Shown here: positions 33,311 through 60,250 of the stretch, one piece after another
How positions within the stretch are numbered: the stretch's first letter is position 1
Layout: every line of letters begins with the position of its first letter
NCBI GenBank assembly: GCA_032622095.1
Contig: CP136061.1
Location: 2,914,001 to 2,978,000 of the forward strand
DNA: 64,000 bases
Source: Siphonodentalium dalli
Lineage: Eukaryota > Mollusca > Scaphopoda > Gadilida > Siphonodentaliidae
Direction: 5' to 3'
Made by a program: the position numbers and the translations under genes
The notes under the pieces: model-generated
Told to the model about the DNA's origin: nothing
The model's input: the letters and a program-made list of their open reading frames with translations, nothing else
The model's database searches: none

Positions 33311-34803
33311 TTACAGGACGGTGTGAGGAGCGCTATTTTGTTCTCCTAGAGCCGCCTTGAATGTTTCTAGGTCGGCGGCATTGACCGTGCTGTTGTCCAG
33401 TTTGTTCCAGTCAAGTACAGTCCTCGGAAAGAAGGAATATCCGTATTGGTTTGTGTTTGTATGAATTGGTTCGTAGGCACTTTCGTTATTTGTGGTTAAT
33501 TTCTCCACGATGTTGTCACTAACAAAGTCCTTGAATTTTGTGGGTTTCTTTTTCCTCTTTGGGCGGTAGTTTCTTAGGTAGTGTTCGGAGTTGATGCCCA
33601 GGGCTGATCCCTTAACCACTTTGTAAAATACATGTAGTGTCAGTCTCTGTTCCTTTCTTCTTGCTTCTATGGATGGTAGTTGAAGTTCACTGAGCATTGA
33701 TGTTACACAGCCTTTCTCTCTCGTTCGGTAGTCCTGTTTTATAAATCTTGCTGCTTTGCGTTGCACCTTCTCCAGTTTTGTCTTGTCCTTTTCATAGTGT
33801 GGATCCCAGATTGTTGCTACATACTCTAGCTGAGGGCGGACTAATGCTATGTATGCCGTTTTTCTAAGATCCATTTGGCAGTACCTGAGATTTCGCCGGA
33901 GGAAGCCGAGGGTGGAGTTTGCCTTCTTCGTGGTGGACTCGATGTGGTGCTGCCACTGCATGTCATTGGAGAATTGGACGCCAAGGTACGGGTTGTTTGT
34001 GACTTCTTGGAGTATCTGCCCTGCTAGTTGGTAAAATCTTTGTGTCTTCTGCTTTAGGCTCATAATGTAGCACTTAGTTGGATTAAAGCGCATCCCCCAT
34101 TTGGTGGCCCATGATTCCAGTTTGCGTAGATCTTGTTGCAATATTTCGTGGTCTTCGTAGGTGTTTATCTGGCGGTACAGGAGGCAGTCACCTGCGAATA
34201 GGCGGACATGTGATGTTACTGTGTCCGGTAGGTCATTTTTGTGGCAGAGAAAAAGCGGCGGTCCCAATACAACTCCCTGTGGTACTCCCGATAGCACGTC
34301 AACTTCTTCTGAGTAGTATCCCTCGAGTGCAACTATCATCTTTCTTTCTTTCAGAAAGGATGCTAGCTATCTGTTGACCGGGCCTGTGATACCGTAGTGA
34401 TTTAGTTTGGTCTGTCATGTGGCACAGTGTCGAAAGCGTTGGAGAAATCAAGGATGGCCACGTCGATCTGCTTCTTGTTGTCCAATAATTGTAAGATGTC
34501 TTGTGTTGTCACTGCTAGTTGTGTTTCGCAGGAATATCCCCTTCGAAAGCCATGGTTTAGCTTTGTTAGTATGTTGTGCTTCTCCAGATGTTCATGGATA
34601 TGGCGGCATATGAGATGTTCTAGTAGCTTGCACGGTACTGATGTTAGGGACACAGGACGATAGTTTTTCGCTTGATGTCGGTCTCCTTTTTTGTAAACTG
34701 AGGCTATGTTGGCGCTGCGCCAGTCCCTTGTCAATGTGCCTGTGTCTAATGATAGTTGGAATATGAGCCTGAAGGCAGGTGCCAGTTGTTTTGAATACTT
34801 CTT
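33311..34803 (-). pseudogene. LINE-B reverse transcriptase, palm and C-terminal part
   Basis: On the minus strand: DWRSANIASVYKKGD, NYRPVSLTSVPCKLLEH, AILDFSNAFDTVPH, then SGVPQGVVLGPPLF, LFAGD, NPYLGVQFSNDMQW, ALVRPQLEYVATIWDP and KVQRKAARFI. This is the order of a non-LTR reverse transcriptase palm and thumb, followed by a ~150-residue C-terminal tail. Defects: a frameshift near 34412-34418 after the DTVPH motif, an in-frame TAG at 34367-34369, and the catalytic FADD changed to FAGD at 34187-34198. It is therefore a dead copy. Clade (CR1/Jockey-like) not determined. Confidence 0.9.
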
Positions 34804-34805
34804 TA

Positions 34806-35582
34806 CACTCTCAAATAAAGCAATTGATTTAGGTACCCCATGGAACCTAAAGCCGCGATAGTACCAGACAGTTTGGTACTATAAGCCTTTAGAGCCTTTT
34901 TAGCGTTATAGAACCACATGAGTTGGTACTCGTTGGCTCCATGCTGATTGGGTGAGACCGTGGGTGTGTCAATATCGAGTGCCGTGTGCAAACGATTAAA
35001 TTAAAGTGAAAAATGGCCGCCCGTCGACTCGCGGTTGTAGATCTGTAGGATTATTTCATTTAGCACTATGCAAGGGAGTCTTTGTGGTTTTGTACTTAAT
35101 TGGATGTTTAAACGCGGCAGCATAATTTGGAATGTAACATGTCACATTGTTAAATTTGCCGGTATCAGGGCTGTTTTGTTCTCTGGAGTATCAAATTGCT
35201 GGATCTATGCGTAGTACCTAAATACTTCAGAGTACCTGTCTTGATATTTTGGTACTTCAGATAATATATAGGGTGTATCATGAAAGCATCTATTTCTTGG
35301 CACCTCATATCGTGAGCGTCATGGCTTGGGTGACATAAATGCGGGGTGGGTATTATATGCACAATGCCCGGGTAGAACTTAAATAATTATTAGGTAATCC
35401 AGAGTACCAACAATTTGGTACTCTAGAGTACCAAGAAGTTGGTACTCCAGAGTACCAAACAATTTGGTACTCTAGAGTACCTAAACTTTTGGTACTCCAG
35501 AGTACCAAAAAGTTGGTACTCCCCCTGGGACAAAGCTTAGTACCTACGTAGGTACTCTGAAGAACCTATATTTTTAAGAGTG
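34806..35582. mobile_element. GGTACT MITE 1, TA target duplication
   Basis: Inserted in LINE-B. Ends are CACTCTCAAATAAAG and, complemented, CACTCTTAAAAATATAGG, flanked by TA at 34804-34805 and 35583-35584. Excision restores the LINE-B frame between PNSIL and KYSK. One end (about 35395-35570) is an array of GGTACTCCAGAGTACCAA palindromes. TA duplication and short TIRs suggest a Tc1/mariner-type MITE. Interior lacks a transposase. Confidence 0.8.
35395..35570. repeat. GGTACTCYAGAGTACC palindrome array in MITE 1
   Basis: Seven or so units of TTGGTACTCCAGAGTACCAA type. Each is a near-perfect palindrome centred on CTCCAGAG or CTCTAGAG. The same unit recurs at 36180-36400. Confidence 0.85.
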
Positions 35583-35584
35583 TA

Positions 35585-36167
35585 GGATAGAGTTTGGGAT
35601 ACCGTCTGGGCCCGAAGCTTTGGATGAGGTTAATCTCTTCAGCAGAGCTTCCACGCCATTCACTGTCACTGTCAGTTTGCCGATGTTTTCGCATTTGGGT
35701 TGAAGATCAGGAAGTGGTGGTTGGTTCTTGGTGAATACTGACTGGAACTGCTTTACCAGGATTTCTGCTTTGCCTTTTGGGTCGTCAATCAGCTTGCCTT
35801 GTGATTTCAATGGCGACACTCCGGTGTTATCTTGTTTTCTGCTCTTGATGTATCTCCAGAATGGTTTCGTCGACTTTTGTTCTAAACCTTCTTTAATCTT
35901 AGCGTTGATGTAATCCCACTCAGCCTTCCTCATTTCCCATTTACATTCTTTCCGCATGGCTCGATAGTTGGTCCATTTGTTGTTCTTCTTTGCCTGTGTA
36001 TATAGGCGCTGTTTCTTACGTAGCAATTTCTTGATCTTATAGTTTACCCATGGAGTGTTCTGCTTTGGTGATATCAGCTTAGAGGGTATGTGTTGGTTCA
36101 TAGATCTGGGTATGCCCTCCTTCAGATGTTTCCACATATCCTCCACGGTTGCACTATTTAGCGTACG
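35585..36167 (-). pseudogene. LINE-B, region between endonuclease and RT
   Basis: The minus-strand frame runs from TLNSATVEDMWKHLKEG through KKLLRKKQRLYTQAKK and FWRYIKSRKQD to SSKASGPDGIPNSIL. The basic linker and the GPDGIP motif are standard for the start of a non-LTR RT domain. It is bounded on both sides by TA-duplicating MITEs, and the frame continues into the flanking LINE-B segments when these are removed. Confidence 0.9.
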
Positions 36168-36179
36168 TACACTCTTAAA

Positions 36180-36665
36180 AAATAGGTACTTCAGAGTACC
36201 TACGTATGTACTAAGCTTTGTCCCAGGGGGAGTACCAACTGTCTGGTACTCTGGGGTACCAAAAGTGGTACTCTGGAGTACCAAAAGTTTAGGTACTCTG
36301 GAGTACCAAAAGTTTAGGTACTCTGGAGTACCAAAAGTGGTACTCTGGAGTACCAAAAGTGGTACTCTGGAGTACCAAAAGTTTAGGTACTCTAGAGTAC
36401 CAAAATGATTGGTACTCTGAATTACCTTATAAATATTTAGATTCTATCCGGGCATTGTGCATATAATACCCACTCTGCCTTTATGTCACCGAATTCATGA
36501 CGCACACGACATGAAGTACCAAGAAATACACGCTTTCTTGACACACCCATTATATTATATGAAGTACCGAATATAAAGACAGGTACTCTGAAGTATTTAG
36601 GTACTATGCATAGTACCTAGCAATTTGGTACTCCAAAGTACCAAACATATAGGTACTAAGTGGAG
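36180..36665. repeat. GGTACTCTGGAGTACC palindrome array in MITE 2
   Basis: About ten units of GGTACTCTGGAGTACCAAAA with occasional AGTTTAGGTACT spacers, dense in 36230-36415, plus isolated units to 36665. Confidence 0.85.
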
Positions 36666-36999
36666 AACCTGCCCAGATACCAAGCACTCGAAATTACGAA
36701 ACATGGCCGACGGCAAATTTAACAATGTGGCAATTTAGATTCCGAATGAAGCTATGGCGTTTAAACATTGAATAAAGTACAAAACCACTCCATTACATAG
36801 TGATAATGAAATAATCCGAATTATACATGCATTACTTTTATTAGTATAGAACCTTGATCGTGATTTTGTACTTAAATCAAAGTTTAAGATCTCGATTTCA
36901 GGATTCCCTGTTCCCTGCATGTGTAGTAAAATTGGTCTAAATGTCCAAAAATTATTTCTTAATTTGTGTGCAATAATATTAAGTAAACATAAATCAAAC

Positions 37000-37990
37000 A
37001 TCTTGGAACTGGTCTGGATGAAACACCGATCGATCTAGACTAGCCCGATAAATAAAAAAACTACCTTGCGATAAATCGCAAACCTTTGCGATTCGTAAAC
37101 AACTTTGCAACAAGTGCCGGTATATATCAGATTTAGTGTAAAGGTTTTCGATTGATTTCAAAATGTTTGCGATTAATCGCAATGGTTTGTGATTTATCGC
37201 AGATATATTTTCATGCATTGGCTTTAATGGACTTGAATCGTATAAATATAAATATAATCCGACAACTTCAACAGGTCTGGGTAAACCACCAATCGATCTA
37301 TAATAGCATGGTTGGGCTAAAATAGACCGATCGTTCTTTGGCAGCAAGCATGCATGTGGTATAAGGCGAGCAAACCTTCGCGATAAATCACAAAACAACA
37401 TTGCGAAAAATTACAAACACTTTGCGATAACGCGCAAACCTTTACGATAAATCTCAGACATCTTTACGAGGACTCTCAGACTGCGTACTGGGTGATTAAA
37501 TTTTGCGAATTATCGCAAACATGTTTGAGATTTGTCGCAAAGATTTTTTGGCACTAATTGGCTTCTGTGAATATTATAAATCAGAAATCTTAAACAGGTC
37601 TGAGTGAACCTATCAATCTATGCCCGGTCGGACTAAAATAGACCGATCAGTGATTCACAGCCAAATGCATGAGTGATGAGGGAGCAAATCCTTGCGATAA
37701 ATCACAAACACTTTTGTGATAACACACAAACCTTTACGATAAATCTCAAAGATCTTTACGATAACTCTCAGACTACGTACTGGGCGATTATATTCTGCGA
37801 TTTATCGCAAAGATGTTTGAGATTTGTCGCAAAGGCTTTTTGCCGATAATGGGCTTCTGTGAACATTATAAATCAGACATCTTAACAGGTCTGAGTGAAC
37901 AATCTATCAATCTATAATTGCCCGGACATGCTAAAATAGACCGATCGGTCATTCACAGCCAATGGAACAAATCTTTGCGAAAACTCCCAA
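37000..37990. repeat. ~265-325-bp tandem array with GCGATAAATCGC and GATCGATC palindromes
   Basis: Four units start near 37003, 37268, 37593 and 37883 with CAGGTCTGGGTGAACC-type sequence, then a palindromic block (AATCTATAATAGCCCGG…AAATAGACCGATCG), then runs of TTTGCGATAAATCGCAAAC and its variants, and GAGATTTGTCGCAAAG. The palindromic block is shared with about 2135-2205. No coding content. Confidence 0.8.
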
Positions 37991-39760
37991 ACCTTTGTAA
38001 ATAGTGTGCGATAAGCAAAATACTCAAAATTGGGGAGACCATTACGGTAACTTTGGTTAATTAACGGTTGTTTGAAAAATACCGCTATAGCGCTCACTAG
38101 TCCTCGCTACAAGGAGATGTTGAATGGGTTACCAGAATTATTATCACTCTCCAAAAAAAATTGCCACGGTGTTCAGTGTTTTGTTTATCGTACACTTCCA
38201 ATGCGCTGTATGAGTAAATTAACAAATACTAAGATACATGTAACACAAAGAGAGTTTAATGTATTTAATATATGATAAAGTTTGGTAAAGCCATAGCTAA
38301 TAAATTATTCTCCATTCGCATCTATGCGTCAATAAGTCAACACTTGGCATTGCCTGATCACCAGAGCCATATAATGTAGAATTTCGCTAATATGGTTTCC
38401 AGTTACAGTGTATGGATGAGGTTATTTCCTAGCAAAGCGGAAATGGCCGAATCGCTCAGAATGATAACCACACATGTAGCCAGACATGTTTTGATAAGAA
38501 CATGAAGCATCTGGACATTGGAATGGTCTACATGTTCATGTATGTATACAGCTAAGCTCTAATTGACCACTCCCCCTTAACGACATTGGCCACCGATATT
38601 ACGAGTAGTTGCGAATGATGGTCAGTGACCAACTTTGAATGTTAATTAAATCATAAACAAATTATTAATTGAAATATTGTTTTGTGTATAGTTAATATGG
38701 TGCATGGCGCTGATGAAAAGGTGGACTGGGTGTTTACAAGGTGTCCATGTGATAAATTAGTTCGAAGTACAGTGGTCGCAAAATATTATACTGTAAGATT
38801 ATCTGCGGTTGCCACATATCAACCACTTGACCATGGTTGAACGGCGGTATGGTATAACCGATGTCATTAATGCCCTACAACCTTGTTAAAGTGTGGGGGG
38901 GTGATCAATTAGAGCATAGCGGTAGTACGTTACTAAAAGCTTGCGATTGCGATTGATTCAGTTATAACGTGGAGCCCAGAATTGGATCCATATCTCCGAG
39001 ATTATCCACCATTCCATAAATATATCAGAACAGTATCACAGCATCACAGACGTTTCGATCGAAAGAATAGCAGACTCCGTAACTGGGCGACATATGTCAT
39101 GGCGACATGGTTCTCAAATCACGTTTCGATGAAAATTGAAGAATATTATCTGTCGTCCTTTGCACAGGTACTTGTACGTTATACCCATCAAACTTGTTGA
39201 ACTGTGACGTCATGACTCTGACTAATTTCTACATAATCGGATGTCTCGTAATCATAGTCACCAGTGGTTGACGCTTGTGAGTTAATTCAGGTTTATAATG
39301 TTGTGAAACTTAAGTATCTGTCTTTTGTAATTCACAATACTTTTGTGTTGTGCATGTAACACCACTGCACTCAATGACTTTTCAATTCGGTCTGGTTCGG
39401 TTCACCGAAAATTTGCTCTTTCAATAATGTAAACGCCCGTTATTTTTTCGGAGGTTATATATCATCTTGTCCCGTCCATGTACAACCATAATCCACAGAG
39501 TGCTGACAATATTCCAGGTTATTGAGAAGCCAGTTAGGTCCAATTTCACACACAAAAAATATGTTGATGAATTTCAGAGAAGTTACTTCCCTAATCTTAA
39601 ATCCACCCAGCGAGCGAACAACGTACCTAGACACTGGCATGATACTAAGGCGTGTAAGCCGACTCCGATACCAACATAAAATGTCTAAGTCTGAGGTGTG
39701 TTTGTCTCTTCGTCCATATTTATATACTGTGAAAAATCTCAATCGTCTCAACTTGAAGTG
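37991..39760. other. Insert interior, no gene recognised
   Basis: Apart from the TIR element at 38549-38928, I see no family. Open frames at 38982-39200 and 39455-39761 overlap on both strands and lack motifs. Confidence 0.35.
38549..38928. mobile_element. Small TIR element (~380 bp)
   Basis: Left TAAGCTCTAATTGACCACTC followed by CCCCTTAAC pairs with right GTTAAAGTGTGGGGGGGTGA then TCAATTAGAGCATAG. It contains a second near-palindrome, ACCACTTGACCATGGTTGAA. Target duplication not resolved. Confidence 0.6.
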
Positions 39761-40047
39761 ATGAACGCCGCCATTTTATCGAGATCGGCTAGTACCAAAA
39801 GAATTATATCACGTGATGCCATCACGTGGGTAACACTTGGGTACCGAGATCGCGCTAGTGCCAAATTAATTATCACGTGATGCCATCACGTGGCTAACAT
39901 TTGGGTTCCGAGAGTGGATAATACCAACATACGTGGTACTTTATCAATATTTAGAACCAAATTCTTCTCGGTACCCGTTGGTCTGGTACTAACAGACATA
40001 TTGGCACTACCTTAGTACCTATATGGCTTGTTATTTCTAAGTGTGTA

Positions 40048-40818
40048 TGCCTTCTCCCAGTATTTGCAGATCCAGTCCAAGTTGTGTCCAGTCTGCTTTT
40101 TTATATAGATAGCACTTCCTCGGTTTTGAATGTTGGTATCTGGGCTTCATGTCGATGTCAGTAATGACTATGGAGTGGTCAGAGATGCCTGGTATGCTGG
40201 TTGATGATTTTACCAGTGATGCATTGTTGGTGAAGACCAGGTCTAGCAAGTTCTTTTCCCGCGTTGTTTGTTCGTGGATTTGTTTTAGCCCTTTTTCTGA
40301 CATGATTTCTAGTAGTTGAGTTTGTATATCTTTGTCTTGGGCTCCTCTGTTTACTACTGAGCTGTTCCACTCTATATCCGGGCAATTAAAGTCCCCACAG
40401 ATGATCATGTGTTTTTGCTTTCCGGATGTCGCTAGGTTGATGGACTTCTCCAGCTCTGCGATGTGGTGGTTCTCTCTGTGTGGCATATAGTAAGCCCCTA
40501 TCAGTATGTCCTTGATGGATGTTGATCTGACCTTGACCCAGTTGATTTCGCTATCTGTCACCAGTTGTGGTTGCTCCGTTGATATTAAGCTCTTGTGGAC
40601 AAGGATGAAGACGCCCCCCTCCAGTGGATACTCTGTCATTTCGGTAGCACGCATAGTTCTCTGGGAAAATTTCGCTTGACTTGATGTGCTCAGGTGTTGG
40701 GTTTTTCCCAGGTTTGACTCCCTGTAGCCATGATTCAGTGCCTATTACAATATCTGACTTGGTGTATTCCAGTGATGCAGCTAGTTCGGCATGTTTGTCT
40801 CTTATGCTGCGGCAGTTA
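40048..40818 (-). pseudogene. LINE-B endonuclease domain, 5'-truncated
   Basis: The minus strand reads CRSIRDKHAELAASLE, then IVIGTESWL, GGVFILVHKS, GAYYMPHRE, IICGDFNCPDIEW, NLLDLVFTN and IPGISDHSIVI. These are the conserved blocks of an exonuclease-endonuclease-phosphatase (APE) domain, including the catalytic E, GDFN and SDH motifs. A one-base shift occurs in a G run near 40612-40617. The copy starts at the first endonuclease motif and joins the foldback array directly, so ORF1 is missing. Confidence 0.9.
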
Positions 40819-44569: not shown

Positions 44570-45660
44570 ATTTCCCGCTCACAAAAATCCATTCCCCCAT
44601 TCATTCACCAGTTTAAATTATTTAGATATGATGTACAAATCAAATAAACGCGATGTCATCCTTTAATAACGTGTCGCATGTATCAGGTGAAGGTCATTCT
44701 TCAGTTACCTTCACCTTTAGCATTCCACGGTGTACTCGTTCCCCGACTCTATAACACATTTAGCTCCCTGATTCCTATATATATATGTATATGTGTAAAA
44801 GACAGCGTTTCTTATCGTATTTTATCCAAATATAGACCTTACTGAAACCAAAAATGGATTATATCGGGCAGTAGTGGTTTATTTTTTCAATATGAGGCAT
44901 CCTGAAAATTTGTGTCAATCATCAAAATAGAGCCAAACAATTTAGATTTTTTTTTTCAATTTTATTAGCTGATGCATCTCGTATAACTGAAGTATGCCCT
45001 TATATACCATAATATTACTAAATTTAAGAGGAAATGTTAATATACATTTTGAGAGGGATATCTTGTCCAATTTTAACCCTTTTCGTGCAGAATTTGGCAA
45101 TTTATAATGAAGATTATAATAAAGATTTACCAAAATTAACAGAAAATTTAAATTAAAAATACTTTAATAGCAATATAAAGCAACCATAAGTCAATTGAAA
45201 TATCTAAACATAATGATACAACATCAGACAATGCCTCAGGCATGAAATTTGACCAGATGACAGGGCATACTGTCTGTTTAACAAACCTGCCATGACAGTC
45301 TTGCACGACAGTAACTCTAGTGGTGATGCCATCACCCCCACTTGGGGTGGGGCTACGATCCCCAATAAGGATACTGGGTGCCGGAAGCTTAATTAGGTCA
45401 ACTGCCACCTTTTCCCGATGGGGGGGGGGGGCTAACACTCCTCAAAATTGTGGGGAGGGGGACTTTAGACCATCTGACCCCCTAATGGTACCTGATGTCC
45501 ATGCAAAACTCCCAGATTTATCACTTTCTTTACTATCTACAGGCGAACCCATGCGTTTCTTCTTTAAATCTGTCCAAAATGTGGTCATTATCATTTGAAA
45601 ATAAGAAAATATGAAATTAACAACTTATCAAGGCGAAACGTGAAATTTCGTAAAATTCAA
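44570..45660 (+). other. Intervening part of the 1354-bp duplicated unit
   Basis: Holds the exon's 3' flank (AATCCATTCCCCCATTCATT, homologous to about 200-225 inverted), a (TA)n stretch near 44780, AT-rich sequence, and a poly(G) run near 45421-45430. Repeated almost base for base at 45924-47014. Opposing open frames near 45148-45598 overlap each other and are not called. Confidence 0.55.
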
Positions 45661-45923: not shown

Positions 45924-47027
45924 ATTTCCCGCTCACAAAAATCCATTCCCCCATTCATTCACCAGTTTAAATTATTTAGATATGATGTACAAATCAAATA
46001 AACGCGATGTCATCCTTTAATAACGTGTCGCATGTATCAGGTGAAGGTCATTCTTCAGTTACCTTCACCTTTAGCATTCCACGGTGTACTCGTTCCCCGA
46101 CTCTATAACACATTTAGCTCCCTGATTCCTATATATATATGTATATGTGTAAAAGACAGCGTTTCTTATCGTATTTTATCCAAATATAGACCTTACTGAA
46201 ACCAAAAATGGATTATATCGGGCAGTAGTGGTTTATTTTTTCAATATGAGGCATCCTGAAAATTTGTGTCAATCATCAAAATAGAGCCAAACAATTTAGA
46301 TTTTTTTTTTCAATTTTATTAGCTGATGCATCTCGTATAACTGAAGTATGCCCTTATATACCATAATATTACTAAATTTAAGAGGAAATGTTAATATACA
46401 TTTTGAGAGGGATATCTTGTCCAATTTTAACCCTTTTCGTGCAGAATTTGGCAATTTATAATGAAGATTATAATAAAGATTTACCAAAATTAACAGAAAA
46501 TTTAAATTAAAAATACTTTAATAGCAATATAAAGCAACCATAAGTCAATTGAAATATCTAAACATAATGATACAACATCAGACAATGCCTCAGGCATGAA
46601 ATTTGACCAGATGACAGGGCATACTGTCTGTTTAACAAACCTGCCATGACAGTCTTGCACGACAGTAACTCTAGTGGTGATGCCATCACCCCCACTTGGG
46701 GTGGGGCTACGATCCCCAATAAGGATACTGGGTGCCGGAAGCTTAATTAGGTCAACTGCCACCTTTTCCCGATGGGGGGGGGGGGCTAACACTCCTCAAA
46801 ATTGTGGGGAGGGGGACTTTAGACCATCTGACCCCCTAATGGTACCTGATGTCCATGCAAAACTCCCAGATTTATCACTTTCTTTACTATCTACAGGCGA
46901 ACCCATGCGTTTCTTCTTTAAATCTGTCCAAAATGTGGTCATTATCATTTGAAAATAAGAAAATATGAAATTAACAACTTATCAAGGCGAAACGTGAAAT
47001 TTCGTAAAATTCAAATTTTTCTTATAG

Positions 47028-47455: not shown

Positions 47456-47789
47456 TGTAGAACACATTTAGCTCCCTGATTCCTATAGCTACACTATGGC
47501 TGTTTTAGTACGAATACTGTAATGGCGAACACGCAAACTCGCGCCGATGATAAAAACAGCTAAAAATAGACTCGATGTTTACAATTACAGGATCGATTTC
47601 AGCTGATATATTCCACATAATGGGGCGTATTGTATATCAAAATGTAGGATCAGACACAGTGAATGCATTTTTTCCCAAATGGACCCACTACGCGGTGCAA
47701 TTGTTGCAGAAATTCGCTCCAAGAAAGAGCGCTACTTTTCTCGTAAAAAATAGAATGGCCGACTGAAGCCGTTTTATCGTTCCAACTAA
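47456..47789 (+). repeat. Dispersed sequence shared with 60.1-60.25 kb (left of insertion)
   Basis: At least 47700-47789 (AAGAAAGAGCGCTACTTTTC, AATAGAATGGCCGACTGAAG, CGTTTTATCGTTCCAAC) matches 60165-60245 in inverted orientation. The target TAA is at 47787-47789. Confidence 0.8.
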
Positions 47790-49844: not shown

Positions 49845-50360
49845 CTAATTAGGAGATCGTAAGTCCAAACTAGGAGATAGTAACTCCTAATTAGGACATA
49901 GTTAGTCCTAATTAGGACATAGTATCTCCTAATTAGGACTTAGTATCTCCTAATTATGACTTAGTATCTCCTAATTAGGAGATATTATCTCCTAGTTAGG
50001 AGATAGTATCTCCTAATTAGGACTTTGGTATCCCCTAATTATGAGATATTATCTCCTAATTTGGAGATAACACAGATATAAAGAACTCAACATGTTCGTG
50101 GTCAGATTCATATCGGATCCGGATCACTCGGCTGACGGTCGCATCGCTCCGTTCGTTCTCGTGCCTTTCGCCCTTGTTTTCAAAATTAAAGGCTTAACAT
50201 GAGGTTACTATCTCCTAATTAGGAGATAGTAAGTCCTAATTAGGAGATAGTAAGTCCTAATTAGGAGATAGTAAATCCTAATTAGGAGATAGTAAGTCCT
50301 AATTAGGAGATAGTAAGTCCTAATTAGGAGATAGTAACTCCTAATTAGGACATAGTAAGC
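49845..50360. repeat. TCCTAATTAGGA palindrome array, left
   Basis: About 20 units of ~21 bp: palindrome TCCTAATTAGGA plus a GATAGTAAG or CATAGTATC spacer. A non-palindromic stretch (about 50070-50200) divides it, and CTTGTTTTCAAAATTAAAGG occurs at about 50173 and 50363. Confidence 0.85.
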
Positions 50361-50365
50361 CTTGT

Positions 50366-50455
50366 TTTCAAAATTAAAGGCTTAAAATGAGGGGTTAGGG
50401 AAAGGACCTATGGGTCCTTTCGAGAATCCCGGAGTTAGCCATCCCATACCCCAAT
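50366..50455 (+). repeat. Dispersed ~85-bp repeat, partner of 60475-60565
   Basis: AAATTAAAGGCTTAAAATGA, GGGTCCTTTCGAGAATCCCG and GGAGTTAGCC align inverted with 60475-60565 (ACCCCGGGATGGTCGAAAGG). Confidence 0.6.
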
Positions 50456-50682
50456 CCGCCGCAGTCATTTTATTATATATATGACAAAGTTCTGTTACAG
50501 GGCCAGGTATGTGTACCATATACATGTAGTCAATCCACGGCATAGAGTATATGTATATACCAGTGACTATCCAGAGATAATCTGATGACACCTGTTTATA
50601 TGCCAAAATAATTTCATTTCCTTTTCAGTTTACGCTTAACAGTACGTAGACATATGTTCAAATTCCGTGTAAATTAGACATT

Positions 50683-51316
50683 TATCATAGTAAATCCCGT
50701 AAATCTGATATCATTCACACCCGGTTAAGATTGAAGTGCAGCCACCTGAGTTCTGACCTGACAGATAACCATGTAAAAAATTATCCCTTCTGTTTATGTG
50801 GGGAACTTGAGACAACTTACCACTATCTCTTTGAATGTACATTTTATCAAGAGCCAAGAAGAGAACTATATGACTCCCTACCCAATGTTGCCCTATCTGA
50901 GAATACTCTAATGCGGGGATCAAGGGAGCTTAGCCTTCGCGAAAACAAACAAATATTTAATGCAGTACAGACATATATCATGAGAACAAAACGATTTCCA
51001 TGATATGTATGGGTAACAAATTACTTTGGATTCCGGCTGCGTTATGCGGCAGCACGATGTTCCCCATTATATATGTAGTACTAAATGTCTTCCGATAACG
51101 ATTATTTTGTAAGTTTCTTACTTGACACTATCCTGTATATTCGTGAAATGATTCTACATGAAGAATGCAGCGATATTCACAGTGAACCCCATTGAAAGAG
51201 GAATTGGCCATTGCGATTGAGCCCCTCACATGGAGCCTGATGCATGCATATTACTACGAGCATAATTTTCACTACGCAGCAACTAAATTATTGAAAACTC
51301 TGTCCCCTCTACGTTC

Positions 51317-51361
<45 letters not shown>

Positions 51362-51690
51362 CTCTCTCACTCGTTGTCTTTCTCTCTCTATCTCTCTCTG
51401 CCTCCTGCTATCCCTAACACTATCTTCCCACTGTTTCCATCCCCAACTCAAACTTAGTTACTTCTCCTTTAAAAAGCATTATTTATATCCTTTCCCGTCT
51501 GATCGATACCCCTCCCTCACTTATTGGGGAAGGGGCATGTCGCCAAAGAGGAGAAGACTTCGGGCTTGTTGTCTGATCCTCATTTCCATACATTATCTCT
51601 TATATCTCTTATATGTTGTATATTTATGTCATTTGTGTATTATGTGTATTATGTTTGGATTTGAAAATAAAAATATGTTTACACTAAATT
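50683..51690 (+). pseudogene. LINE-C, 5'-truncated copy
   Basis: Homologous to 58545-59498. It keeps only the last ~100 codons of the LINE-C ORF, including the FCLCG…HYLFEC zinc-binding-like motif, ending at TGA 51001-51003, plus the 3' UTR with a (CT)n tract (about 51317-51400) and AATAAA at 51666-51671. It ends TATGTTTACACT. Few differences from the full copy indicate recent activity. It lacks ~12 bases including the 5' arm of the 3' UTR hairpin. 5' truncation is typical of target-primed reverse transcription. Confidence 0.9.
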
Positions 51691-52253
51691 AGACAAACAT
51701 TGGACGATGTATTTATAACTCAGCCCCAAATTGAAGTAGAGTTGCAATGCTTCGTCCATTGCAAACGAATGAATACAATAATTATGTGAGTGGGTCTAAA
51801 TGACCGCGAACCGTTTATTGGGAAATTGAGATTGGGGCCCGGGAGGATTTGGAAAGGCAGTATGTCCTCCCCCACGACCCACTTAGGAATGATGTTGGGT
51901 GTTATAAATGGTGATATAACAATGAAAAATGATGGGAAAATGATCTAAACTTTTTTTTACTTCTTCTTTTTCGCTTTTCCCCCTAATTCTGTATACTGTT
52001 TCTGTGTTTCACTTGTTCTTTTTCTTCTTCCCTCGAGTGGTCTTGATGGCCCCATGAGGGTGGTTTCCTGTCGGTCCTACCAGAGGTATATCATACCCTA
52101 TCAGGCCACTTCCAGTTACTGTTGCTACTGGTGTGACCTGTTACTGCAAAACCACTTCAAGTCAGCCTGCATGTGTACGTATGGTCCTGATTGGTCCATG
52201 GACACAATGCACCGACTGGAAAGAGTTCACATCGTGCGAGACTTGGCTGGGGA
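51691..52253. other. No gene recognised
   Basis: Spacer between the truncated LINE-C and the foldback MITE. No motif noted. Confidence 0.35.
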
Positions 52254-52257
52254 TTAA

Positions 52258-52598
52258 AGGGTACTGTACACTAAATCCGGCTATTTATGAGACCATCTCC
52301 TTTTATACTCAACATAATATATATGAATGAATACTTTTGGGCCATTGATTAGCGCAAAGTACACTCGTGTGCTCTACGAATGATGCAAACAACATGGTAA
52401 TTATAATGGAAATTAATAAACGGTTGGAGTCATAAATAAATTTTCATTATAATTACCATTTATTGTATTCGTCCAATGAGCACACGAGTGTATTTTGCAC
52501 TAATATTTGTCTCAAATTCATTCATTTGTTGCATAAACTCTGTTGAGTATAAACGGAGATGGTCACACAAATGGTCGGATTTAGTGTACAGTCCCCCT
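52258..52598. mobile_element. Foldback MITE, ~170-bp arms, TTAA flanks
   Basis: Ends AGGGTACTGTACACTAAATC and, complemented, AGGGGGACTGTACACTAAAT. Arms continue through GACCATCTCC, TATACTCAACA, TGAATGAAT, TACACTCGTGTGCTC and GGTAATTATAAT, meeting at a short loop near 52420. TTAA stands at 52254-52257 and 52599-52602, which fits a piggyBac-type target duplication, although piggyBac ends usually start CCC. Confidence 0.75.
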
Positions 52599-52739
52599 TT
52601 AAGCTATCCATGTCCAGCCAAGCCCGACAGAAAAATCAACCGTCTCTCAAAGAGGGCACGTCCTTTCTCTGGGTGGCGACTCTGAGCGATAAATGGGAAT
52701 GAAAATGACCGCTAACTGGGGTTGAGTTCTTTATATCTA

Positions 52740-52985
52740 TATTATCTCCTAATTAGGATAATAACTCCTAATTAGGAGACACTAAGTCATAATTAGGACT
52801 TACTATGTCCTAATTAGGACTTACTATCTCCTAATTAGGACTTACTATGTCATAATTAGGACTTACTATCTCCTAATTAGGACTTACTATCTCCTAATTA
52901 GGAGTTACTATCTCCTAATTAGGAGTTACTATCTCCTAATTAGGACATAGCTATCTCCTAGTTAGGAGTTACTATCTCCTAATTA
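52740..52985. repeat. TCCTAATTAGGA palindrome array, right
   Basis: About eleven units with ACTTACTATCTCCTAATTAGG sequence, same palindrome as the left array. It stops at CTAATTAG followed by AGAGTTGAATAA. Array-like sequence resumes at 59501. Confidence 0.85.
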
Positions 52986-55308
52986 GAGAGTTGAATAATT
53001 TACAAATAGTTCAAAAACCAGTATCTGATTCGCGATTCTTTAACGATTATTTTCTGTCAAATTAAAACACCCGGCCACCCACACCTAGAATCAGTTGCGT
53101 TTGCACATGTAACCCAAAGAATCAGTTACATTTGCACACGTAACCCAAAATAACGAATTTAAGCGAACTTAAATCTGCACATGTAAATATACGCACCTGT
53201 CATGCAGTGACCTCTGTATGGCGAAATCTTTTGAAATAATCCAATTTTGCACGGACAAGCTAGAATATCACGGATGTTCGTTGACTTGTACATGCATATC
53301 AGACGACTATATACAGAATAATTGACCACATTCATAATTATCCAATCCACTAGTATGTATACACAAGTCTACACCTGTTTGTTCAGCATAATAACACAAC
53401 AATTCTTATACCACGGAGCACGATTTGCCATCGCCATTACCAAATGAAACCGGCCAGAACGCCAACAGTAGATTGGGCATATAATCACGACCTTTCAGGT
53501 CAAACTCACACGAGATAATCATTTCTATGTCAAGCGGCCAGTCTGACTGGATAATTAAAACCAAACAACGACGTTAGTTGACCAAGGTTATGCGACGCGA
53601 ATACATGTTGATATGCGCACAGGGACGCTGTGAGTACATTTTGGCATTCACTGTATAGGGCGTATGCGTGCACGTGCAGGTATACATACTCAACCAGCTT
53701 AAAGCATATATTGTCTTATTTGTGTATTTGCATTCGTATTGTTATCTTGGTCTTATCGTTATGATAGACATTGTGTATTTATACTATTCATCGACAATAT
53801 TTATACCCCCATACCACGATATGTATAATGGCACATACTTATTCCAAACCGCCGTCTGTCCATCTGTTCATTCCGTACTGACTGTGAACTATTTAATTCC
53901 ATTTGAGATATTTCAACCCTTGCCGTCCGTTCCCATGCAAGCATAATCGAGTGTTGAGTTCACATGGACTCCGATATTTATACATTTATACATGCATGCG
54001 CATGCTCCGCTGTAAAACTTTTCTTAAAAGTGCATCTACGTAATTATCTACCTTGTGTGCAATGATGTACACACGGACTATACCTCAAATCCGCACTCAT
54101 TGACACATGTGTGTACATATACAAATATTACAACACTATTGCAACGTTCTTGCGTAACTTACGTGTACATGACAAATTTATGCCAATCTCGCCGTTCGTT
54201 CGTCCATCCATCCACAGTCTGTACTATTATAGCTTCTAATATTACTTTATATTTTATTATATCTATGATACTTCAAACCATAACGCTGTTCACTTGCGCG
54301 TGGTGAATGAATAACTATTAGAACATGCATATGTATGTTATACAATAATTAGGCACTTATAGGTCATTCAAGTATTCCACACTTCCTCCAGTTCATATGC
54401 CTACTCTGTTTTTTTTTTCTCCTTTCCATGGGGTTACTGTTACTCCTTGGGGGAGTTGATCATTTGCTGGTGTTTGATATAGTTTCATATGCCCTATGAT
54501 CGTGGCCTGTTTTTGGCTATTATAGCTATAGCCATTCAGCCGCTTTTTACTTAGTGGGTTTATGGACTGGAGCTAGCGAATACTCAGCATCATTAGTGTT
54601 AATTATATCAAATTATCCTCCAAATTAAATGCGACACATAAACTATGCCTTTCTCAATGCTCGTCTGAAGTATTGCGTACTAGTCTCTATATATTTTATT
54701 GTATCCGAGAATGGAGATATTTCAAACCATGCGGTTCCGCCCCCTGTGAAAACATAAGCGTGCGTATCAAAAACTACATTTAATGATCTGGGCACGCACA
54801 CACCTATATGTATGTATGTACGTGTGACTTTGTGTATGTGTATATAGGTGTGTGTATGTATTTAATTATATATGTGTGTAGTTGTGTATCTTCCTGTTAG
54901 TCTTATGAATAAATCGGACCTTTAAATCGAATAGTTGGCATGATAATCTCTATCCCTCACTTTAGAAACATAACTCCTATAGTCATTTCCGCTGCATATA
55001 CATTTTCGTGATGAAGAGCTCCGAGCTCAAAACACACCCTAAGATTATCAAACTTAAGAAGAACCCCTGTTTGGTCGACTCAAAAAACCCATCGGCCTGC
55101 ACAACCACGATTGGTATACATTCTATTGCCACTCACTATTGCTATCTCATACTCTCATTCACTATACTCAACTGCCCTTCTGTTCTACTCTGTTCTCTTT
55201 CTCCTACCTACTCACACCTACCTGTATGCTCTATTAATATGTTTGTTACTGTGCACCGAGGATGCCCAAAACAGAACTGCTCTCAGGATTTTGATATGAC
55301 TTTTGATA
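52986..55308 (+). other. Upstream of LINE-C ORF; no ORF1 recognised
   Basis: If LINE-C inserted in the array, this 2.3 kb would include its 5' region. I find no gag-like ORF1 or zinc knuckle. A 102-codon frame at 55008-55316 shows no motif. Features seen: a GCACATGTAACCCAAA direct repeat near 53103 and 53137, and a TGTGTATG-rich stretch near 54810-54885. Confidence 0.35.
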
Positions 55309-58300
55309 ATGGGTGACATAATGTTACATAGGGCAAGAATCGGTGCATTTCACAATCTTGCTGTCAGGCTGTCAGGGAGGGGGCGTCTATGTGTGAAACA
55401 ATCAAAAACATGCTTGTTTTATATCATGTTACGTTTACGTGGACTGGATCTTATAACTGCCTTAACATTGACACTGTTGGTTTTCATTTTCTTCCCGATG
55501 GAACAATTCTGCGCTCTCAAACATATCTTGGCAGGCAAGAAACTATCTAATTCTCCAAATTCCGATGATAAAAAGACGAAGTTGAACACTAAATTTGCGA
55601 TGTCACACACAATTGTATTCCTCTTCACATGCGTGACATTTCTAACTGTATTAGCGGTATCTTTAGCAAAGGCCCTTTTGGTCCTGGCAGGAGACGTGGA
55701 GACTAACCCAGGCCCCTCAACCGAACAACACAATCACTCGGTACTTGTACTAAATACACAGAGTATCAGAAATAAAGTAGATATACTTGCAGCCGAAACA
55801 TCAAATGGGGAGTACGACATATGTCTATTAACCGAATCCTGGCTCGATCATTCTATCCCGGATTCAGAAATCCATCTTCCTGGCTACCATGATCCTGCCC
55901 GCAAAGACAGGATAGATGGCAGAACAGGAGGGGGTGTGTGTATTTACGTTCGTGACACTATACCATTCAAAATACGCGATGAACTTGACAGTGACGAAGT
56001 AGAAAATATCTGGATAGAGGTTACAATTAACACAAAACGTTGTCTTGTAGGATGTTTTTATCGCCCTCCCAACTCCCCCGCAAGCCTGTGGACAAAAATT
56101 AATGATAACATTTCTCTTGCGCGCGATAGCGACCTGGATGTCATTATAGGTGGAGATTTCAATGAAAACTATGTACGCAACGGTAATGGTAAAATAAACG
56201 GCATATGTAGCGAACGAGGTCTGACCCAACTGGTCACTGATAAAACGCATTTTACTGAAAATTCCTCATCCATTCTCGACTTGCTCATGACTAGCAACCC
56301 TGACCTTATTGATTCCCCTTGTGTTCTTGGCAACATATTCGACAACACAATTAGGTATCACTGTCCGGTCGTTGCTCAGATAAAACTTTTGAAAAATAAG
56401 TCGGCTACAAATCTCACTAGACGTATCTGGAATTATAATCTGGCTGACTTCGATACCATGAACGAAGACTTCTTGAGCTGGAACTATGATGATAATACAC
56501 CATTTGAACTTTCAGCTCATGCAGATAACTTAACTGCAAAAATTCAAAAGGTATGCAGTGACAATATCCCAAATAAGATAGTACTTATCCGGAAAGGTAG
56601 TCCCCAATGGCTTACGTGTAATGTACGGAAACTGATGAGGCAACGAAATCGATTACACAAGATAGCTAAAAGGAAAAACACACCACAGACATGGGCAAAC
56701 TTCAGATCTAAACGTAATGAAACTACATCGGCTATTAGAAAAAGCAAACGTGATTATGACACCAAGAATGAGAACACATTGAATAGCCCATCACATGACC
56801 AGTCTTCCTGGTGGAAAACACTCCAAAAAATAGTATTTGCTACCAGTGATAGATCAATACCCCCCTTGAACACCAACGGCGACTTCCTGATATCACCAAC
56901 TGAAAAAGCAAATGCTTTCAATTCGTATTTTTGTAAAATTTCATCAGTTGATGACGTCGGGAAACGCCTACCAGTCCTTGAACCGGATAACTCCATATCC
57001 ACATTAAGCGATATAAAAATCACAGCCCCTGACATTTACAAAGCGTTAAAAAGTCTTAAAATATCTAAGTCAAGTGGGCCCGACGGAATAAGTCCGAGAG
57101 TTTTGAAAAGTTGTGCCTCCTCGCTCTGTGAACCTCTTGAATTCTATTTTAGAACATTTACCGAAAACAGTTACTACCCACACCAGTGGAAGCGTTCACA
57201 TGTTACACCTATATTTAAGAGTGGTGATTCCGGTCTTATATCAAATTACCGACCAATTTCTCTACTAAGCTGCGTCTCAAAGGTCTATGAAAAATGTATT
57301 TATAAATATCTATGGGAATTTCTTGATGAAAACAAACTCCTATCATTTTACCAAGCTGGTTTCATGCGCAACGATTCAACGGTTTTTCAACTTACCGAAA
57401 TATATGACAATATATGTCGATCATTAGACGACGGAAAAGAGGTCCGGTGTATATTCTGTGACATAAGTAAAGCATTCGATAAAGTCTGGCACCGTGGCCT
57501 CTTGAACAAACTGACAAAAATTGGTATAAGAGGAAACTTGTATAACTTGATGAAATCGTATCTAGAATGTAGACAACAACAGGTTGTCATAGACGGCACA
57601 CGTTCGGAACTACAAAATGTAACAGCAGGTGTGCCGCAAGGCTCAGTATTAGGCCCACTTCTGTTTTTAATTTATATTAATGATATAACCGAAAATATAC
57701 GATGTAACATTCGTCTATTTGCTGATGACACTTCTCTATTTCTTACTATCGAAGACCCCACCATGGCCGCAAAACTAATCAACGATGACCTCGAAACTCT
57801 CATGTGTTGGGCATCAGAATGGCTTGTAAAATTCAATCCCCTGAAAACGGAATCTCTCTTAATCTCCAGGAAAGAAACACCAGTATATCATCCACATTTG
57901 ACCATGGGAACCGCGACAATTGTTGAGGTTGACAGCCATAAACATCTGGGACTTACTTTCGACAACATGGGCTCTTGGGGTATCCACATCAGATCTATGC
58001 TTGACAAAGCATGGAGTCGAGTAAATCTAGTACGTAAACACAGATACAGGCTAAGCAGAGTAACGCTTGAAAAAATCCATTATACATTTATCCGACCAAT
58101 ACTGGAATATGCCTCCCCTGTTTGGGATAACTGCCCTGATTATCTTAGTGATGACATTGAAAAGGTTCAGTATGAAATGGCCCGAATAGTAACAGGTGCA
58201 ACCATCAGTACGAGTAACGCGTGCCTTTTGTCAGAGACTGGCTGGGAACTCCTCTCTTCACGCCGTAGAAAACACAAGCTGTGCCAATTTTTTAAAATGA

Positions 58301-58872
58301 TACGAGGAACTGCTCCATCAATTTTAAGAAATTATGTACGACCAATTCAGGCAAATAATTCCAGATATAACTTCAGATTTGAACATATAAGACTACCCTC
58401 GAATATTAATTATGACTATTATATGGATTCTTTCTTACCATCTGCAATTACCGAATGGAACAAACTGTCAGAAACTACAAAGAGCAGCAGTACAATCGAA
58501 GACTTCAAAAAGGAACTGAACAGTGACAATATACGTCCACCTGCCTATTTTTATCATAGTAAATGTCGTAAATCTCATATCCTCCATACCCGGTTAAGAT
58601 TGAACTGCAGCCACCTAAGTGGTGACCTGACAGATAACCATGTAACAATTTCCCCCTTCTGTCTATGTGGGGAATTTGAGACAACTTACCACTATCTCTT
58701 TGAATGTACATTTTATCAAGAGCCCAGAAGAGAACTATATGACTCCCTACCAAATGTTGCCTTATCTGAGAATACACTAATGCGGGGGTCAAGAGAGCTT
58801 AGTCTTCGCGAAAACAAACAAATATTTAATGCAGTACAGACATATATTATGAGAACAAAAAGATTTCCATGA
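55309..58872 (+). CDS. LINE-C polyprotein: hydrophobic N-terminus, 2A motif, APE endonuclease, reverse transcriptase
   Basis: Single intact ORF of 1187 residues from the first ATG (55309; A at -3, G at +4), preceded by an in-frame TGA at 55297. Numbering below counts from two codons upstream, at 55303. Residues 47-64 and 101-128 are hydrophobic. AGDVETNPGP (129-138) is a canonical 2A ribosome-skipping motif. Endonuclease blocks: LNTQSIRNK, LLTESWL (E178), GGDFN (283-287), SILDLLMT; the usual SDH is RYH (351-353). RT blocks: SGPDGISP (591-598), NYRPISLL, FCDISKAFD, AGVPQGSVLGPLLF, LFADDT (FADD 806-809). A C-terminal CxC-x7-H-x4-C lies at 1120-1135. CR1-like in layout. It makes and integrates cDNA of its own RNA; this copy has an intact RT but a doubtful endonuclease. 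Confidence 0.95.
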   Translation: MGDIMLHRARIGAFHNLAVRLSGRGRLCVKQSKTCLFYIMLRLRGLDLITALTLTLLVFIFFPMEQFCALKHILAGKKLSNSPNSDDKKTKLNTKFAMSHTIVFLFTCVTFLTVLAVSLAKALLVLAGDVETNPGPSTEQHNHSVLVLNTQSIRNKVDILAAETSNGEYDICLLTESWLDHSIPDSEIHLPGYHDPARKDRIDGRTGGGVCIYVRDTIPFKIRDELDSDEVENIWIEVTINTKRCLVGCFYRPPNSPASLWTKINDNISLARDSDLDVIIGGDFNENYVRNGNGKINGICSERGLTQLVTDKTHFTENSSSILDLLMTSNPDLIDSPCVLGNIFDNTIRYHCPVVAQIKLLKNKSATNLTRRIWNYNLADFDTMNEDFLSWNYDDNTPFELSAHADNLTAKIQKVCSDNIPNKIVLIRKGSPQWLTCNVRKLMRQRNRLHKIAKRKNTPQTWANFRSKRNETTSAIRKSKRDYDTKNENTLNSPSHDQSSWWKTLQKIVFATSDRSIPPLNTNGDFLISPTEKANAFNSYFCKISSVDDVGKRLPVLEPDNSISTLSDIKITAPDIYKALKSLKISKSSGPDGISPRVLKSCASSLCEPLEFYFRTFTENSYYPHQWKRSHVTPIFKSGDSGLISNYRPISLLSCVSKVYEKCIYKYLWEFLDENKLLSFYQAGFMRNDSTVFQLTEIYDNICRSLDDGKEVRCIFCDISKAFDKVWHRGLLNKLTKIGIRGNLYNLMKSYLECRQQQVVIDGTRSELQNVTAGVPQGSVLGPLLFLIYINDITENIRCNIRLFADDTSLFLTIEDPTMAAKLINDDLETLMCWASEWLVKFNPLKTESLLISRKETPVYHPHLTMGTATIVEVDSHKHLGLTFDNMGSWGIHIRSMLDKAWSRVNLVRKHRYRLSRVTLEKIHYTFIRPILEYASPVWDNCPDYLSDDIEKVQYEMARIVTGATISTSNACLLSETGWELLSSRRRKHKLCQFFKMIRGTAPSILRNYVRPIQANNSRYNFRFEHIRLPSNINYDYYMDSFLPSAITEWNKLSETTKSSSTIEDFKKELNSDNIRPPAYFYHSKCRKSHILHTRLRLNCSHLSGDLTDNHVTISPFCLCGEFETTYHYLFECTFYQEPRRELYDSLPNVALSENTLMRGSRELSLRENKQIFNAVQTYIMRTKRFP
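55690..55716 (+). promoter_or_regulatory. 2A ribosome-skipping site
   Basis: Codes GDVETNPGP, matching the consensus D-V/I-E-x-N-P-G-P. In known 2A peptides the ribosome skips the glycyl-prolyl bond, here between residues 137 and 138, giving two products from one frame. The second product would start with the proline just before the endonuclease domain. Confidence 0.9.
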
Positions 58873-59188
58873 TCTGCATTGGTAACAAATTGCTTTGGAT
58901 TCCGGCCGCGCTATGCGGCAGCACGATGTTCCCCATTATATATGTAGTACTAAATGTCTTCCGATAACGATTATTTTGTAAGTTACTTACTTGTCACTAT
59001 CCTGTATATACGTGAACTGATTCTACATGAAGAATACAGCAATATTCGCAGTGAACCCCATTGAAATAGGAATTGGCCATTGCGATTGACCCCCTCCCAT
59101 GAAGCCTGACGCATGCATATTACTACGAGCATAATTTTCATCACGCAGCAAATAAATTATTGAAAACTCTGTCCCCTCTACTTTCTCA

Positions 59189-59219
<31 letters not shown>

Positions 59220-59500
59220 GCCTCCTGCTATCCCTAACACTATCTTCCGCTGTGTCCATCCCAACTTAGTTACTTCTCCTTTAAAAAATATTATTTCTAT
59301 TATTTCCCGTCTGATCGATACCCCTCCCTCACTTATTGGGGAAGGGGCATGTCGCAAAAGAGGAGAAGACTTCATATAAGCCCTCGGGCTTGTTGTCTGA
59401 TCCTCATTTCCATACATTATCTCTTATATGTTGTATATTTATGTCATTTGTGTATTATGTGTATTATGTTTGGATTTGGGAATAAAAATATGTTTACACT
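58873..59500 (+). other. LINE-C 3' UTR
   Basis: Contains TTCCGGCCGCGCTATGCGGC, a (CT)n tract near 59188-59220, a perfect hairpin AAGCCC-TC-GGGCTT at 59378-59391 followed by TGTTGTCTGATCCTCATTTC, short TGTATTATG repeats and AATAAA at 59481-59486. It ends TATGTTTACACTA with no poly(A). The same layout appears at 51004-51690 and, diverged, at 59540-59925. Confidence 0.85.
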
Positions 59501-59533
59501 AGATAGTATCTCCTAATTAGGACATACTGGGAC

Positions 59534-59925
59534 CCACAGTTTTATTTTATATATTTATTTTATTATTGTATACAGCATTTATCACACTTCTTTTCTACCT
59601 ACTTTATTATCTTACTTGTCTATTTCATAATCTCCTCCCTTTTATCACTCCTCCATCTTTCTGATCCCTGCACTCACTTAACTAACTTCCCAACATTTAT
59701 TTGAAAACACAGAACAATATTCAAATTCCCGTCCTCTTTACCCTGTAGCTGTCTGTATTGACACTCGGGGTAACATTTTTGGAGGAAAAGATTTTTACAA
59801 AAGCCATAGGCTCATGGCTTGTTATCTAATCCTCATTTGAACTATGTTTTTTTTCTCAATATGTATAATTGTCAACGTGATGTTCTGTTCTTTTGTTAAA
59901 ATAAATATTGTTTACACTAAAGTTT
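59534..59925 (+). pseudogene. 3' end fragment of a LINE-C-related element
   Basis: CT-rich sequence, then AAGCCATAGGCTCATGGCTT (hairpin, 59801-59820), TGTTATCTAATCCTCATTTG, AATAAATATTGTTTACACTA. It aligns with the LINE-C 3' UTR in order but is clearly diverged. No coding portion remains. Confidence 0.65.
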
Positions 59926-60114: not shown

Positions 60115-60250
60115 ACGTCTTCTGATATATGGTGTATATTCGTATTTTATGGATGAAGCTAAGAACGGCTTAGTTGGAACGATAAAACGGCTTCAGTCGG
60201 CCATTCTAATTTTTACGAGAAAAAGTAGCGCTCTTTCTTGCAGCGAATTT
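60115..60250 (-). repeat. Dispersed sequence preserving the unoccupied TAA site
   Basis: Inverted relative to 47700-47789 joined directly to 49443-49490 (CCGTTCTTAGCTTCATCC, AAATACGAATATACACCAT on the minus strand). The junction has one TAA in CCAACTAAGCCGT, showing the site before insertion of the 47790-49442 element. Confidence 0.85.

Follow-up and report, generated by a model that had tools for sequence, protein, structure and literature searches.

The LINE L1Tc of Trypanosoma cruzi has a protist host and belongs to another LINE clade than the element described here. To judge from the title of a 2006 report by Heras et al., it reportedly carries a functional 2A sequence in frame with its LINE proteins; by the title of Odon et al. 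2013, 2A sequences in APE-type LINEs are said to mediate translational recoding. 2A sites in LINEs are already published, and the site presented below belongs to this known kind: like the elements of Odon et al. it lies in an APE-type LINE, and like that of L1Tc it is in frame with LINE proteins (both compared by title). The first-pass annotation of this DNA had taken the setting within an intact ORF to distinguish the copy, a view that we do not uphold because the published LINE 2A sites are, by the same titles, also in frame. Trypanosome and sea urchin elements with 2A are mentioned in the available part of a review (PMC5972666).

StopGo (2A) sites are described as common in RNA viruses and rare in cellular genes, and are classed by the six residues preceding the core (Li et al. 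2026, PMC12846837, available part, also below). L-rich classes carry (A/S/C)G directly before the Asp and, in viruses, favour Ser inside the core. An L-rich example proved active when assayed, and in the four StopGo classes tested activity was mostly lost when characteristic residues were mutated (PMC12846837). In sea urchin NLR proteins, an N-terminal 2A acts as both signal sequence and recoding site, with about 80% recoded (Roulston et al. 2016, PMC4981915, available part).

We analysed a window of 64,000 nucleotides of Siphonodentalium dalli DNA (contig CP136061.1, positions 2,914,001 to 2,978,000). GDVETNPGP is encoded on the + strand at 55690-55716, in the frame of a 1187-codon ORF, which confirms the position given by the first-pass annotation exactly. 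The frame is open from 55300, its first ATG is at 55309 and its stop codon ends at 58872. The features of the element are as follows.

55309..58872, + strand: LINE ORF with leader, StopGo site, endonuclease (EN), reverse transcriptase (RT) and C-terminal Cys/His motif, 1187 codons plus stop (Pfam; start by conserved N-terminal motif)
55309..55713, + strand: leader protein (135 residues) whose predicted release leaves a C-terminal Gly (hydropathy, start motif)
55309..55353, + strand: conserved leader start MGDIMLHRARIGAFH, motif MG(N)x4[YH]RxxIGxF[YH] (comparison with clade relatives)
55600..55692, + strand: hydrophobic stretch ending in LLVLAG and adjoining the StopGo core (hydropathy)
55675..55692, + strand: LLVLAG hexapeptide, L-rich StopGo class (sequence; class assigned by eye)
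55693..55716, + strand: StopGo core octapeptide DVETNPGP (frame, pattern search, chance expectation)
between codons 55711-55713 and 55714-55716, + strand: Gly-Pro bond at which skipping is predicted (core motif)
55753..56298, + strand: APE-type endonuclease, Exo_endo_phos 3.3e-10 (Pfam); by the place of SDH the domain reaches at least 56361
56353..56361, + strand: RYH in place of the SDH of APE-type endonucleases (alignment with relatives)
57238..57954, + strand: reverse transcriptase, RVT_1 6.7e-33, FADD present (Pfam)
58660..58707, + strand: C-terminal CLCGEFETTYHYLFEC, CCHC-like motif (by eye)
58873..59504, + strand: 3' untranslated tail without poly(A), end near ...GTTTACACTA (end common with the copy at 50681-51689)
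50681..51689, + strand: 5'-truncated sibling that retains the final 106 codons and the 3' tail and lacks the 2A region (sequence comparison)

The core DVETNPGP agrees with the (D/G/C/N)(V/I)ExNPGP definition of StopGo/2A sites, and the sequence is coding in frame both 5' and 3' of it. It begins at residue 129 of the ORF, with 128 residues preceding. When all six frames of the window were searched for D(V/I)ExNPGP with up to one mismatch, the only match was that at 55693-55716, against a chance expectation of the core per window of 4.8e-5 (window's own residue frequencies) or 2.6e-4 if D/G/C/N is permitted at the first core position. As had been annotated, the site lies between a hydrophobic N-terminal region and the endonuclease: hydropathy in 19-residue windows peaks before it, at residues 46-64 and 102-120, and the Pfam endonuclease match follows. 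Judged by eye against the published description, LLVLAG-DVETNPGP fits the L-rich class, and like the viral L-rich motifs 2/6 its hexapeptide ends in (A/S/C)G before the Asp (Li et al. 2026, PMC12846837). Unlike these, it stands in a retrotransposon and not in a viral polyprotein, and its core has Thr where the viral classes prefer Ser. It is very likely that the octapeptide functions as a StopGo site. More specifically, we are confident, with some reserve, in reading it as a recoding site that would end the leader protein of an APE-type LINE and split it from the EN-RT enzyme.

Exo_endo_phos precedes RVT_1, the layout of an APE-type non-LTR retrotransposon (LINE), and from this layout we read the element as a putative member of the Jockey superfamily (CR1/L2 lineages). 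The ORF matched eight solved sequences, all of them reverse transcriptases, including LINE-1 ORF2p and R2 proteins. The RT motif FADD is intact (RLFADDTSLF), and CCHC-like motifs such as that near the C-terminus are usual at this place in LINE ORFs. The Asp of SDH has a role in APE-type endonucleases. It was present in all 23 relatives with residues at this place (25 aligned), adjoining the His in 20 of them and, in L069, L070 and L073, one residue apart from it; SDH also occurs in LINE-1 and in the other LINE of the window. The window copy has Tyr in place of this Asp and hence an incomplete catalytic motif. Its endonuclease is probably impaired, and the copy may be dead because the motif is altered to RYH. 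The ORF described as intact is therefore open as a reading frame, but the enzyme that it encodes may not be intact.

LINE membership is also seen from one 5'-truncated sibling with a common 3' end (50681-51689). Over 106 codons, the sibling and the full copy differ by a dN of 0.041 and a dS of 0.260, from which we conclude that purifying selection has acted on this C-terminal part of the ORF in the family. A 5' end and a target-site duplication of the full element were looked for and not found. Directly behind the full element, at 59505-59925, lies a second, similar but diverged 3' tail (GGCTTGTTATCTAATCCTCATTT ... GTTTACACTAAA). Arrays of a 21-bp unit (CTCCTAATTAGGA...), inverted at the two ends, enclose the 5'-truncated copy (50136-53015), and the same unit also occurs just past the 3' end of the full copy (about 59505). 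The minus strand at 33311-40817 holds a fragmented other LINE (EN 40037-40654, with SDH; RT 33311-34339), in whose remains no 2A-like octapeptide was detected. Elsewhere in the window, the stretches 45151-45595 and 46505-46949, open on both strands, repeat 1354 bases apart with their first 60 residues identical, pointing to a local duplication, and an 81-base inverted repeat is 96% identical between 60170-60250 and 47710-47789. Scanning the window for Rfam families and tRNAs gave no matches.

Whole-ORF scans of the viral and genome collections gave no relative of the element. The motif GDVExNPGP occurred at 28 loci of genome_contigs, five of which encode LINE relatives (L022, L023, L031, L033 and L040). 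In the viral_contigs control, the octapeptide was found at 16 loci with Val and 8 with Ile, and none of these 24 encodes a LINE relative. We take the five relatives to be host DNA inside symbiont or metagenome bins. The Bathymodiolus brooksi symbiont bin (G001; L023 and other contigs) gave 22 LINE matches, which are probably mussel host DNA. A 2A linker was also seen in two contigs from the Pseudoalteromonas caenipelagi and Proteiniclasticum aestuarii assemblies (L034 and L043), which look like laboratory vector sequence.

Because the first five relatives had been found through the motif, searches by EN-RT only were run on 6, 83, 84, 42 and 369 genomes (bins and their kin; some genomes were searched repeatedly, and five of the bins had been entered via the motif). 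Nineteen elements reached the start of the endonuclease (L053, L058, L062, L064, L066, L068, L069, L070, L054, L056, L059, L022/L057, two in G056, L094-L097 and L104). L057 and L022, being one element, enter the count a single time, with a weak EN match that begins at query residue 34. Stops or frame breaks interrupt both G056 elements, which were left out of the tree described below. Outside this count are L102, which starts inside the endonuclease at a contig end; L055, L063, L065, L067, L071-L073, L076 and L077, which have no EN start; L074, L075, L078-L082, L103 and L105, with a best match in the RT or later and a diverged or cut endonuclease; and the weak or short L061 and L098-L101.

A StopGo-type octapeptide (up to one mismatch to the expanded core) precedes the endonuclease in the same frame in 11 of the 19 elements. 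Two more (L054 and L022) carry the site in a separate upstream ORF instead, and six (L068, L094-L097 and L104) showed none in the six frames of the fetched locus. After removal of the five motif-found elements, the site was present in 8/14 and absent in 6/14. In 26 ORFs (28194 residues) there were ten core matches with up to one mismatch, all upstream of the endonuclease. We conclude from this placement, and from the 6/14 without a site, that the site has a set place but is lacking in part of the wider group. The degenerate G056 copies have GIESNPGP and NIESNPGP, 21 and 29 residues ahead of the EN match. In L066, L069 and L070, a PHD finger lies between the StopGo site and the endonuclease; in L059 this place is taken by a stretch that is Cys-rich by eye and gave no PHD match in Pfam. 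PMC4120745 (available part) describes how diverse ORF1 is across the Jockey superfamily, including PHD.

An RT tree of 26 rows, built by maximum likelihood and containing no named CR1, L2 or Jockey references, placed the window element in a clade with L053, L062, L058 and L064 (support 99/99). The four partners come from mussel bins, and L062 alone of them had been found by the motif. All five members have a StopGo-type octapeptide just before the endonuclease: DVETNPGP in the window, DIHQNPGP in L053, DVEINPGP in L062, NIESNPGP in L058 and NVELNPGP in L064, with NPGP invariant. Mean pairwise identity in the clade was 0.68 for the octapeptide, 0.29 for the leader, 0.38 for the endonuclease and 0.51 for the RT. 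Two residues present among these relatives, Asn at core position 1 and His at core position 3, are rare viral variants reported to be more than 95% active (PMC12846837). L053 has Asn instead of the usual Gly before the core. Outside the clade, DTETNPGP in L066 and DISTNPGP in L070 carry changes that are not among the active variants reported in the available part of the same article. Conservation in related LINE ORFs, on which the first-pass annotation would have had the motif judged, is complete in the clade (5/5) and partial in the wider set (8/14).

These data bear on whether the motif in the window copy could be a product of chance or decay and inactive. The altered endonuclease motif, with which the copy itself may be inactive, and the missing site in 6/14 relatives found without the motif would agree with such an origin. 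The copy has nevertheless kept the full consensus octapeptide together with its context, at an expectation of 4.8e-5, and 5/5 clade members have a site at the same place, so that chance or decay is very improbable. The comparison supports the recurrence of the putative StopGo site, its place before the endonuclease and the leader start in the nearest relatives found.

The leader start, MG(N)x4[YH]RxxIGxF[YH], is common to the five clade ORFs, the window copy being without the Asn. A six-frame search of the window for the full motif gave a single match, at ATG 55309, against an expected 1.6e-5; as the motif was derived from the compared sequences, this value is a guide and no strict test. A 9-residue part of it arose once in 300000 leader shuffles and gave 13 matches in 123 fetched locus records, all in four clade elements or in G056:C20. 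Because the shared motif sits on ATG 55309, we fix the leader length at 135 residues, in agreement with the membrane-like peptide of ~135 residues annotated before: 135 codons run from this ATG to the Gly of NPG, and the product has hydrophobic stretches. Translation from the inner ATG 55600 would instead give a signal-type 2A leader of 38 residues, with the upstream part as 5' untranslated sequence. These 38 residues comprise one hydrophobic stretch plus the 2A, and codon usage of the window leader gave no coding-like signal, as an untranslated upstream part would have it. Against an inner start stand the conserved motif on ATG 55309 and the 100 open codons upstream, since only 0.4-0.6% of window stretches of that length stay open; we regard an inner start as highly improbable. 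A short ORF at 55011-55313, which overlaps the start of the LINE ORF by a few bases, had no Pfam match and was not accepted as ORF1.

Leaders in the clade range from 84 to 136 residues, counted through the final Pro. Between L058 and L064, pN and pS were 0.278 and 0.733 in the leader and 0.224 and 0.741 in the endonuclease, with synonymous sites close to saturation. In this one pair, the substitution pattern indicates purifying selection on the leader nearly as strong as on the endonuclease. A leader profile recovered G056:C20, which was absent from the alignment, with an E value of 8.8e-12. When the leaders of the four relatives, minus the 2A, were made into a profile, the window ORF ranked first of 2132 six-frame segments at an E value of 0.14, and the window leader was outscored by 8 of 2000 shuffled leaders; its homology outside the start motif is therefore weak. 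The leader matched no Pfam family above cut-off (one weak membrane-protein match, DmsC, 17.0 bits vs 22.3) and no solved structure. A single-sequence structure prediction of leader plus endonuclease had a mean pLDDT of 40.7 and was set aside. A leader with an MG...RxxIGxF start was not named in the titles and abstract starts found, where Odon et al. 2013 was compared by title and the motif is not text-searchable.

We propose that a ribosome starting at ATG 55309 would synthesize the 135-residue leader, and that its last hydrophobic stretch and DVETNPGP would then sit in the exit tunnel. The Gly-Pro bond would fail to form, so that the leader would be released ending in NPG, and translation would resume to give a 1052-residue EN-RT enzyme with Pro as its first residue. 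In a minority of translation events, the Gly-Pro bond would form, giving a leader-EN-RT fusion that the hydrophobic leader could send to membranes. The first-pass annotation had implied two separate products, the enzyme beginning with Pro. The site does predict these two, but some fused product is to be expected as well, since the tested N-terminal sea urchin 2A recoded ~80% and skipping need not be complete.

Two functions of the leader can be considered. The first is dual targeting, in which skipping would serve its purpose by being incomplete: the leader would be a signal sequence, the skipped enzyme would go to the cytoplasm and nucleus and the unskipped fusion to the secretory pathway. 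The hydrophobic stretch adjoins the 2A, and this junction of a hydrophobic N-terminal segment with 2A resembles the sea urchin NLR proteins, where an N-terminal 2A was both signal sequence and recoding site (about 80% recoded; PMC4981915, available part). However, the sea urchin sequences are 26-residue leaders at the N-terminus of immune receptors, whereas here a 135-residue leader precedes EN-RT; 128 residues with a polar, conserved start lie before the core, so the 2A is not within an N-terminal leader of ~26 residues. Nor are the clade leaders of this size (84-136 residues). The constraint in the L058/L064 pair moreover exceeds the apparent need of a bare signal, and a benefit of secreting EN-RT is not evident. 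We regard dual targeting as a rather unlikely function.

The second is that the leader is a protein with its own job, small and membrane-associated and at the place of ORF1, the StopGo site giving two proteins from one ORF. The conserved start motif, purifying selection in the L058/L064 pair and the recovery of G056:C20 from outside the alignment argue for this, as do L054 and L022, in which the 2A site is in a separate upstream ORF. The lack of a Pfam family above cut-off (DmsC, 17.0 vs 22.3 bits) or a solved structure, and the weak resemblance of the window leader to the others outside the start motif, count against it. We give such a leader a little less than an even chance. Because the start is conserved and the leader constrained, we favour a free small membrane protein over a dual-targeting signal.

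Taken further, a free membrane protein leads to a tentative picture for which we claim somewhat less. In an animal LINE lineage, a conserved small leader (MG(N)x4[YH]RxxIGxF[YH], with a hydrophobic C-terminal helix) may be encoded in place of a separate ORF1, with StopGo as the fixed splitter from EN-RT and a leader that has its own role in retrotransposition. Octapeptide variants (Asp, Asn or Gly first; Glu or His third) would have been explored within what viral StopGo tolerates; the relatives share Asn first and His third with active viral variants (PMC12846837, available part). Since such variants are tolerated in viral StopGo, counts of StopGo in LINEs may have missed sites that lack Glu. 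A clade with a fixed site whose octapeptide varies mostly inside the functional alphabet provides natural variants that are directly testable. Most worth pursuing is the conserved leader, whose role becomes a question for a deletion experiment.

StopGo-type sites were also met in an LTR-retrotransposon-like polyprotein, a 2462-aa ORF on the minus strand of a Planctomycetota MAG contig (L019). RT, RNase H and integrase zinc-binding domains were above the Pfam cut-off, a CCHC-like motif and the integrase core below it. The two sites have their cores at about residues 982 and 1858, at the boundaries between the CCHC-like motif and RT and between RNase H and integrase, and StopGo would appear to take the place of the usual frameshifting or protease.
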